Positions 10,275 through 16,644 of a stretch of 16,644 bases of DNA are shown here, one piece after another. The stretch comes from a bacterium (GTDB lineage Bacteria; JAHJDO01): assembly GCA_030652805.1 (NCBI GenBank), contig JAUSPT010000069.1, positions 1 through 16,644 on the forward strand, written 5' to 3'. Position numbers and translations under genes: made by a program. Every line of letters starts with the position of its first letter. Position 1 is the stretch's first letter. The notes beneath the pieces were generated by a model, which made no database searches, was not told the DNA's origin, and worked only from the letters and a program-made list of their open reading frames with translations.

Positions 10275-10598
10275 ATGTTTACGTTTATAAGTGTAATCCA
10301 TATTATAGCCTGTGTAAGTCTGATTTTAATTGTTCTCCTTCAGGTGGGAAAAGGAGCAGATATTGCCAGTATGTTTGGCGGAGCAGGTACTCAATCTCTA
10401 TTTGGAACAAGTTCTGAGACATTTATGACAAAGCTCACCACAGCAATGGCTATAATCTTTGTTCTCACGTCCATCTCCTTGAGCTTTATGTGGATTTCTC
10501 ATTACAGCGGTACTTCCATAGTGAAAAAGGAAGGTATAAAGCAGGTAGAAGCTGAAGCTGTAAAAGAAGAAGCCGTTGATAAAGAAACAGAGAAGTAA
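10275..10598 (+). CDS. secG: Preprotein translocase subunit SecG
   Basis: SecG is the small subunit of the SecYEG channel and helps SecA-driven export across the inner membrane. The 107 residues contain two hydrophobic helices (about 3-22 and 52-74) flanking the conserved loop with LLQVGKGAD, FGGAGTQSLFG and a short polar stretch. This is followed by a charged Glu/Lys-rich tail. It starts 4 nt after pgk without a clear Shine-Dalgarno, so coupling to pgk translation is probable. Position next to pgk is typical, usually with tpiA between. A terminator candidate begins 31 nt after its stop, inside the next gene. Confidence 0.93.
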   Translation: MFTFISVIHIIACVSLILIVLLQVGKGADIASMFGGAGTQSLFGTSSETFMTKLTTAMAIIFVLTSISLSFMWISHYSGTSIVKKEGIKQVEAEAVKEEAVDKETEK

Positions 10599-10615: not shown

Positions 10616-12205
10616 ATGAAGAATATATTACCGCTTCTTGCGGTATTTTTTTTATTTATAAATACACACTCAATCTCTGGCGAACCTGCATATGGCGATG
10701 CAATAATTGCAGGCTCAATAGGGGATGCTTCAACGCTTATCCCAATACTGGCTTCAGACGGTGCTTCTCAGGATATTGTAGGGCTGGTATTTAATGGACT
10801 TCTTAAGTACGATAAGAACATAAAACTGGTTGGAGATCTGGCAGAATCATGGGAAGTCTCTTCTGATAAACTCACTATTACATTTCATTTGCGGAAAAAC
10901 GTTAAATGGCACGATGGTTTTCCATTTACAGCTTCTGATGTGATGTTTACATATAAAAAGCTTACAGATCCAGATGTTCCTACTCCATATAGCGGCGACT
11001 TTGAACGAATAAAAAAAGCAGAAGTTGTTGCCCCTTATACATTCAAGGTAACCTACAAAGAGCCATTCTCTCCAGCCCTTGCCAGCTGGGGAATGTGGAT
11101 TATGCCTGAGCATCTTCTAAAAGATAAGAATTTAATCAAGTGTAGTTTTGCGCGGCATCCAATAGGAACAGGACCATATAAGTTTAAAGAATGGAAAACC
11201 GGACAAAGAATTGTTCTTAAGGCAAACAACGACTACTTTGAAGGCAGACCATATATAGATAAGTATGTTTACCAGATAATTCCAGACGATGCGACAATGT
11301 TTCTTGAACTTAGCGCTGGGAATGTTGATTGGATGGGACTTAATCCTGTTCAATATACTTATCAGACTAATAAGACATGGTTTAAAACTGGTTTCAGCAA
11401 ATATAAATATCCAAGCTTTGGTTATACCTATCTGGGTTACAACCTTAAAAACCCGTTATTTAAAAATAAACTTGTTAGACAGGCTTTAACATATGCAATT
11501 AATAAGACTGAGATTATCAAAGGAGTTTTATTAGGCTTAGGAGAGATCTCAACGGGTCCTTTTCCTCCTGAATCCTGGGCATACAACAAACATGTGAGAA
11601 GATACCCGTATAATCCGCTAAAGGCAAAAGAAATACTGAAACTGTGCGGGTGGGAGGACCATGACGGAGATGGCTGGATTGATAAAGATGGAAAAAAGTT
11701 CGAATTTGAGATTATAACAAATCAGGGGAATGCACAGAGAAAGAAATGCGCAGAAATTATACAGCAGAATCTCAGACTTGTTGGTATTAAGGTAGATATA
11801 AGAATAATTGAATGGGCCTCTTTTCTAAATGAATTCATTTATAAAAAAAGGTTTGATACTATTTTACTTGCATGGGGTCTGGGCAGAGATCCTGATAGTT
11901 TTGATATCTGGCATTCATCTAAAACAAAAGAGAAAGAATTTAACTTTATTTCCTATAATAATCCAGAGGTAGATAAGCTCCTGGACGATGGAAGAAAGGA
12001 ATTTGAAATAGAGAAAAGGAGACAGATTTATCATAGGATCCACGAGGTTTTAGCTGAAGACCAGGCATATACATTTTTATATGTGCCTGATTCGCTTCCG
12101 GTTGTTCATACACGCTTTAAAGGTATAGAAGTCTCTCCGATCGGAATAGGCTACGATTTTATAAAATGGTATGTTCCGAAGCATCTGCAGAAATATACGC
12201 AATAG
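10616..12205 (+). CDS. Peptide-type ABC transporter substrate-binding protein (SBP family 5)
   Basis: This periplasmic extracytoplasmic solute receptor belongs to the DppA/OppA family. In 529 residues, a signal peptide (about 1-22, hydrophobic core LLAVFFLF) is followed by the typical opening with DASTLIPIL and VFNGLLKYD. Next come LAESWEVS, FHLRKNVKWHDG, the family signature region, PIGTGPYKF, VRQALTYAINK, and a late DPDSFDIWHSS. Residues 348-359 form an EF-hand-like D-x-D-x-DG loop common in these proteins. No lipobox cysteine is seen, so it is probably soluble. No permease or ATPase genes lie beside it, so the ligand is unknown. The start at 10616 follows a weak AGAGA and is the only one that keeps the signal peptide. 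Confidence 0.92.
   Translation: MKNILPLLAVFFLFINTHSISGEPAYGDAIIAGSIGDASTLIPILASDGASQDIVGLVFNGLLKYDKNIKLVGDLAESWEVSSDKLTITFHLRKNVKWHDGFPFTASDVMFTYKKLTDPDVPTPYSGDFERIKKAEVVAPYTFKVTYKEPFSPALASWGMWIMPEHLLKDKNLIKCSFARHPIGTGPYKFKEWKTGQRIVLKANNDYFEGRPYIDKYVYQIIPDDATMFLELSAGNVDWMGLNPVQYTYQTNKTWFKTGFSKYKYPSFGYTYLGYNLKNPLFKNKLVRQALTYAINKTEIIKGVLLGLGEISTGPFPPESWAYNKHVRRYPYNPLKAKEILKLCGWEDHDGDGWIDKDGKKFEFEIITNQGNAQRKKCAEIIQQNLRLVGIKVDIRIIEWASFLNEFIYKKRFDTILLAWGLGRDPDSFDIWHSSKTKEKEFNFISYNNPEVDKLLDDGRKEFEIEKRRQIYHRIHEVLAEDQAYTFLYVPDSLPVVHTRFKGIEVSPIGIGYDFIKWYVPKHLQKYTQ
10629..10653 (+). terminator. Intrinsic terminator inside the start of the next gene
   Basis: The stem TACCGC/GCGGTA (10629-10634 and 10640-10645) encloses the loop TTCTT and is followed at once by eight T (10646-10653). 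It fits a factor-independent terminator for gap-pgk-secG but lies in codons 5-13 of the downstream binding-protein gene. There it encodes part of the hydrophobic signal-peptide core. Ribosomes translating that gene would cover the stem, so it could act as an attenuator. Confidence 0.65.
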
Positions 12206-16442: not shown

Positions 16443-16644
16443 CTATTTTCTCAAAATAAGTGATTCAATAAGGTGTAGCATATATGAGGTTAGATGTCTA
16501 TGCAATGTGCTGGCTGGGCACATAGGTAACACTTTTTGTTTAAGATTCTCATTGTGATTCTCAATATATCTCATGGGTGTTAAATAATCAAGCGCTTGAT
16601 GAGGGCGATTAAAATTGTACTCAATCAGCCAATTTGTTACAGCT
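16443..16644 (-). mobile_element. Transposase/integrase core C-terminus (partial, runs off window)
   Basis: Read on the - strand from 16643, the frame is open for about 66 codons to a TAG at 16445-16443. It contains WLIEYNFNRPHQALDYLTP, the strongly conserved end of rve/DDE integrase-core transposases (IS481/IS3-like). A tail with KVLPMCP follows. The N-terminal part lies right of the window, so intactness cannot be judged. No terminal inverted repeat is seen between the stop and the amidohydrolase 10 nt later. That is closer than expected for a complete insertion sequence. Confidence 0.85.

Follow-up and report, generated by a model that had tools for sequence, protein, structure and literature searches.

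A terminator-type hairpin within the signal-peptide codons of the binding-protein gene following gap-pgk-secG, a candidate operon terminator and attenuator conserved across Omnitrophota

The window analysed here, a stretch of 16,644 nucleotides, belongs to genome G000 (2.0 Mb, 102 contigs), whose phylum is represented among the compared genomes by a single genus of five genomes. It carries the genes gap, pgk and secG in this order, followed by a gene for a solute-binding protein (SBP) of the SBP_bac_5 family (Table 1), the closest protein relatives of which are found in Omnitrophota. The secG stop codon and the SBP start codon are separated by 17 nt. In the window the binding-protein gene stands alone and is followed by a convergent gene, the binding-protein-dependent permeases of G000 being encoded on other contigs. 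In the Omnitrophota loci L034, L043 and L044, permease and ATPase genes lie downstream of the binding-protein gene; in L034 (562-5744) it is the first gene of an opp-type operon (two BPD_transp_1 and two ABC_tran genes), unlike its counterpart at 10616-12205 of the window. Elsewhere in the window, a strong terminator-like hairpin TCCCCGAAAGCTTTCGGGGA followed by TTTTGTTTTT occupies positions 22-41, shortly upstream of a gene starting at 177, and an open-ended frame on the minus strand at 16443-16643 (NRPHQALDYLTPM...), truncated by the contig end, resembles by eye the C-terminal part of a transposase.

Table 1. Features of the secG-SBP junction in the window.
Feature	Position	Strand	Evidence
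secG, final gene of the gap-pgk-secG run	10275..10598	+	Pfam SecG E=7.8e-18; sequence
secG stop codon TAA	10596-10598	+	sequence
SBP_bac_5 solute-binding protein gene, oligopeptide type, N-terminal signal peptide MKNILPLLAVFFLFINTHSISG	10616..12205	+	Pfam E=8.9e-100; open frame; orthologs
SBP start codon ATG	10616..10618	+	13 nt 5' of hairpin; sequence
Hairpin 5' arm TACCGC, codons 5-7	10629..10634	+	sequence; invariant in four genus members
Hairpin loop TTCTT	10635-10639	+	sequence
Hairpin 3' arm GCGGTA, codons 9-10 (Ala-Val)	10640..10645	+	sequence; Omnitrophota covariation
T8 tract, codons 11-13 (Phe-Phe-Leu)	10646..10653	+	sequence; TTT/TTR codon bias in tract

The preliminary description of this DNA had placed a GC-rich 6-bp stem followed by T8 past secG, within SBP codons 5-13, and this structure is accurate as read from the sequence. 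The element consists of the codons TTA CCG CTT CTT GCG GTA TTT TTT TTA (LPLLAVFFL), and a terminator scan located the hairpin 30 nt past the secG stop codon, on the + strand and with an unbroken T8 tail. It displays the features of intrinsic terminators, namely a GC-rich stem, a short loop and a T tract directly 3', and, as in pyrBI-type attenuators, both hairpin and T tract lie within an open frame whose start precedes them. The 38-nt fold of the element has a free energy of -9.6 kcal/mol (z = -3.1 versus shuffles), and single-sequence folds of 71 and 131 nt of the window revealed no strong alternative (antiterminator) structure. With a stem of just 6 bp, the window hairpin may be a weak terminator. 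The window contains 11 terminator-like sites versus 10.2 +/- 3.1 expected by chance; taken alone, the hairpin is within chance for one window and is suggestive only, and the case is carried by comparison. The genome background comprised 187 kb of G000 and 400 kb of G093; the 187 kb of G000 contain 21 terminator-like sites, among which the window element is the sole one at an ORF start. Rfam gave no match at the gathering score, its two chance-level matches (E 0.13 and 0.45) lying far below. A repeated genomic element was rejected, the 21-base core being found once in its own genome with 3 mismatches allowed.

Three other genomes of the genus carry the SBP gene, with 88-95% protein identity. 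Codons 5-13 are identical base for base in the four genus members, window included, among which the fourfold-degenerate sites of the gene differ by 11-31% and codons 2-4, 14 and 18-21 vary. Only one invariant stretch of codons in the gene is longer than this nine-codon run, whose borders coincide exactly with those of the element. In G004, the secG end and the spacer have been rebuilt and the hairpin is unaltered.

We searched for orthologs in genome contigs and 384 Omnitrophota genomes and could read the gene start in 134 loci, 130 of which have secG upstream. Under a strict rule (score >= 14 and p <= 0.05 versus synonymous controls), an in-frame hairpin with T tract lies inside the ORF in 91/134 loci; a relaxed rule adds about 11 more, for a total of about 102/134. 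The stems, longer in the relatives than in the window, are often unrelated in sequence (TACCGC..GCGGTA, ATATCCCGG..TCGGGATAT, GCTACCGA..TTGGTAGC, GGCACTGTT..AACAGTGTC and GATCACTGCTTT..AAGGCAGTGATC). About 30 of the 134 loci have no detectable hairpin, and nearly all loci of G+C 60% or more are among them. Relatives that lose the stem and keep the signal peptide, which the preliminary description had regarded as evidence against its reading, thus exist as a minority, mainly at G+C >= 60%, whereas the majority keep the hairpin; the element is lineage-wide and not indispensable. On the tree, which is built from 77 columns, is poorly resolved and shows clustering only, the trait requires 24 changes versus 36.5 when shuffled. 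In L135 and L181, a terminator is found in the spacer after secG and not inside the binding-protein ORF, a placement that is as expected of a terminator of the secG operon, the overlap having been undone or not yet made. In L112 and L039 (G079 lineage), the stem CCAATATCCC..GGGATATTGG is strongly kept and the T tract has decayed to TTGGTATTG; termination has possibly been lost there with the stem retained.

As a fair test for selection on the RNA we used synonymous randomisation, drawing codons according to the pooled usage of loci with similar G+C. The mean terminator score fell from 17.9 to 3.3 upon randomisation, with p<0.01 in 80/133 loci. For the window alone, p was 0.013 with random synonymous codons and 0.09 when codons were permuted within the segment, the latter being the weaker test. 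In control windows of the same size, a hairpin was found in 91/133 signal regions versus 1/133 SBP bodies and 2/252 secG windows. A chance hairpin is rejected by the randomisation and the control windows. Codon choice in the T tract points in the same direction, although the Phe and Leu contrasts are inflated because T content served to locate the tract: the TTT:TTC ratio for Phe is 162:15 in the tract versus 286:114 elsewhere (p 2e-8; 59:4 versus 77:41 for loci of G+C >= 50%) and the TTR:CTN ratio for Leu is 76:15 versus 358:826 (p 7e-24).

Covariation was computed on two groups of loci of equal length. In the first group 97.9% of the cells are paired, with 28 double-change cells, where shuffles give 9.5 and slid controls no more than 10; in the second, 95.8% are paired, with 14 double-change cells versus 4.8 in shuffles. 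In neither group did a slid register come near the covariation of the true one. The outermost G-C pair occurs both as GC and as CG, and the next five positions inward display all four Watson-Crick types. Arms from the same locus pair at 8.4/9 positions versus 4.7/9 for swapped arms, a descriptive figure given that arms were chosen for complementarity. The alignment of orthologous loci proposed in the preliminary description as a check therefore came out strongly in its favour, the pairing being conserved unchanged in the genus and with compensating codon changes across Omnitrophota.

Could the hairpin be a by-product of the protein, the signal motif K-IPL..AVFFL simply happening to be encoded by a pairing sequence? 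The motif does recur in many orthologs, and Lys and Phe/Leu are what A/T-rich flanks would naturally specify. However, synonymous randomisation abolishes the hairpin, which already refutes this reading; moreover, the pairing is kept where the peptide varies (KKISRTIGIFFL in L114, KLPIFLVAFLF in L150 and KRSLLFIKAVIFFL in L230), and the windows from secG, the SBP body and M16 peptidase signal regions lack a hairpin apart from rare cases. We give it next to no credence. A general trait of signal peptides or secreted genes was also rejected on the basis of M16 peptidase orthologs, which carry such a hairpin in 2/29 cases, from two sibling genomes only. In these two, L265:564-3224 (G093) and L280 (G079), the peptidase gene lies 3' of an apparent rpsU and its signal-peptide codons hold a hairpin ACTGCTGTG..CACAGCAGT with T4; the other 27 orthologs have no hairpin in the signal region. 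The proposal that one DNA segment serves as both secretion signal and terminator-type RNA is supported by the orthologs, the covariation and the synonymous tests. We conclude from these comparisons that the same segment is under selection in both capacities; the structure, its in-frame position and this joint selection on RNA and protein are directly seen at the level of sequence.

Strand and position of the element were then considered across the loci. A T-rich 3' side is seen in 82/91 loci, but just 29 have an A tract of the same strength 5' of the stem, so that selection acts on the + strand RNA. The hairpin begins at a median of 36 nt past the secG stop codon, as is usual for the terminator of an operon. 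In the window no in-frame ATG, GTG or TTG occurs between the hairpin and the mature domain, and the start codon must therefore precede the hairpin. The same lack of any start codon after the hairpin is found in 34/91 hairpin loci, and 79/91 have no ATG there; according to predicted starts, an ATG 3' of the hairpin is possible in 12/91. A start codon 3' of the hairpin was thus rejected as impossible in the window and, as regards ATG, as absent in 79/91 loci.

A hairpin located this close to a start codon could act on translation or RNA stability and not on termination, either by hindering SBP initiation or by protecting the 3' end of a processed secG mRNA. A stem 13 nt past the AUG would hinder 30S binding, and in the extended fold the U tract is base-paired to the region of the start codon. 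However, the conserved, TTT/TTR-biased 3' T tract is required by a terminator but not by a block to translation, and the distance between AUG and hairpin is not conserved (10-90% range 6-65 nt among loci), which makes such a role unlikely. The tract itself could be thought of as a slippery U8, at which transcriptional slippage or frameshifting would regulate the product, as a T8 in coding frame beside a stem is a classical slippage context. Nevertheless, in the examined loci the zero frame runs without a stop into the mature domain, and the T run is often broken (TTTTTCTTTT, TTTTTATTTTTA), which slippage would not tolerate; we regard this explanation as very improbable.

We favour, with a probability of about 0.7, the interpretation that the element is an intrinsic terminator ending the gap-pgk-secG unit that is set in the first codons of the next gene and attenuates this binding-protein gene. 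Judging from its structure, the hairpin would end most transcripts after secG. Since the start codon precedes the hairpin, every full-length SBP mRNA must include it, whichever promoter is used, and a hairpin that terminates is for this reason an attenuator of the binding-protein gene. The binding protein would then be made only from read-through transcripts, as would the products of the oppBCDF-type genes behind it in Omnitrophota, and the attenuator would set the share of glycolysis/secG operon transcription that reaches the transporter. A missing Rho factor as the cause of reliance on hairpins was rejected, Rho being present in 14/14 genomes tested. Termination inside an ORF would generate non-stop messages if ribosomes had already started, which a hairpin lying beside the AUG could reduce. 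As to how the overlap arose, the A-rich 5' and T-rich 3' flanks of a terminator, when read in frame, would give Lys/Asn and then Phe/Leu, approximating the n- and h-regions of a signal peptide, so that the flanks and the GC stem could double as an n-region followed by a Phe/Leu-rich core; the ease of this overlap may explain an exported-protein gene growing back into the secG terminator.

Readthrough would probably be set mainly by the leakiness of the hairpin, and ribosomes could increase readthrough, either by continuing from secG or by early loading at the SBP start codon. The strict form of such coupling would be a translation-coupled attenuator resembling the pyrBI leader, in which ribosomes at the SBP start, or re-initiating past secG, open the hairpin and readthrough reports initiation. 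The window hairpin, 13 nt past the AUG, is in reach of an initiating ribosome, the secG stop and SBP start are close in the window and in other loci (median 13 nt by a rough start call), strong Shine-Dalgarno-like sites are present in L034, L035, L050 and L051, and ribosomes are known to antiterminate ORF-internal hairpins in pyrL (PMC5021804) and pil1 (PMC3894217). On the other hand, the Shine-Dalgarno sequence of the window is weak, a timed device should have a constant start-to-hairpin distance, and an E. coli terminator 30 bp past an AUG lost only about 10% of its efficiency to its own translation, ribosomes needing 1-2 s to start (PMC4824070). We consider the strict form possible, albeit on balance improbable. 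In the same system, a ribosome sitting at a stop codon ceased to interfere with the terminator once that codon was over 27 nt upstream, and polymerase pausing can overcome the limit of distance and timing, as in pyrBI (PMC4824070). Set against the 13 nt and 30 nt of the window, these distance data make leaky termination our first choice for what sets readthrough, followed by ribosome coupling from secG. The preliminary description had proposed that translation of the binding protein itself would block folding; in our analysis, leaky termination or coupling via secG ribosomes appears just as likely. Stop-to-terminator distances as a gauge of coupled or runaway transcription amounted to 3 and 7 terminators, which is too few. 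A phylum-wide attenuator in which the start of an exported protein, served by ribosomes handed over from secG, gates polymerase into a transporter operon, the signal codons acting as address and sensor at once, is a rather doubtful extension of the coupling model.

The individual components of the operon terminator and attenuator that we propose are already known, whether terminators in translated leaders, leader-peptide attenuators, operon terminators serving as attenuators or ORF-internal 3' ends. In the frd-ampC case of E. coli, the terminator of the upstream operon is likewise the attenuator of the next gene, with an exported product, but in ampC the attenuator precedes the start codon, being part of the leader. 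A trp-type leader attenuator differs in that here there is no separate leader peptide and the frame of the hairpin runs on into the SBP. In pyrBI of E. coli, an intrinsic terminator is also located inside a translated ORF (pyrL) and works in a manner that depends on how far the ribosome is from the polymerase (PMC4824070, PMC5021804), but the ORF there encodes a leader peptide and the polymerase makes timed pauses, whereas the window hairpin lies in the signal peptide of a structural gene. In pil1 of Streptococcus gallolyticus, ribosomes translating into a hairpin terminator that precedes genes for exported proteins increase readthrough; in contrast to the SBP locus, a separate leader peptide of variable length is used there and the terminator is upstream of the gene and not within its codons (PMC3894217). 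The intergenic terminator of the Microcin C genes mccA-mccB similarly gives rise to two transcripts, a short abundant one and a long rare one, subject to the influence of ribosomes; in that case ribosome binding induces termination and the hairpin lies between the genes, not inside the second one (PMC6495379). Term-seq in E. coli detected 3' ends inside coding sequences and 5'UTRs, some of them generated by intrinsic termination (PMC7815308); these ORF-internal ends are comparable in that termination occurs inside a coding sequence. In the literature searched, which covers few subscription journals, we found no report of a covariation-conserved terminator in signal-peptide codons across a phylum.

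The junction thus provides a clear-cut natural example of overlapping codes in bacteria, where a segment of 25-45 nt specifies both a membrane-targeting peptide and a terminator-type hairpin and where the peptide and RNA constraints can be separated by synonymous-codon tests. It also suggests a route to such an overlap, as an A-tract, a GC stem and a T-tract read in frame amount to a recipe for a signal peptide. The locus is a directly testable case of the interplay between ribosome and polymerase at the very start of a gene. At the passage from glycolysis/secG to a peptide transporter, uncultured Omnitrophota appear to limit transcription by means of a hairpin internal to the gene.
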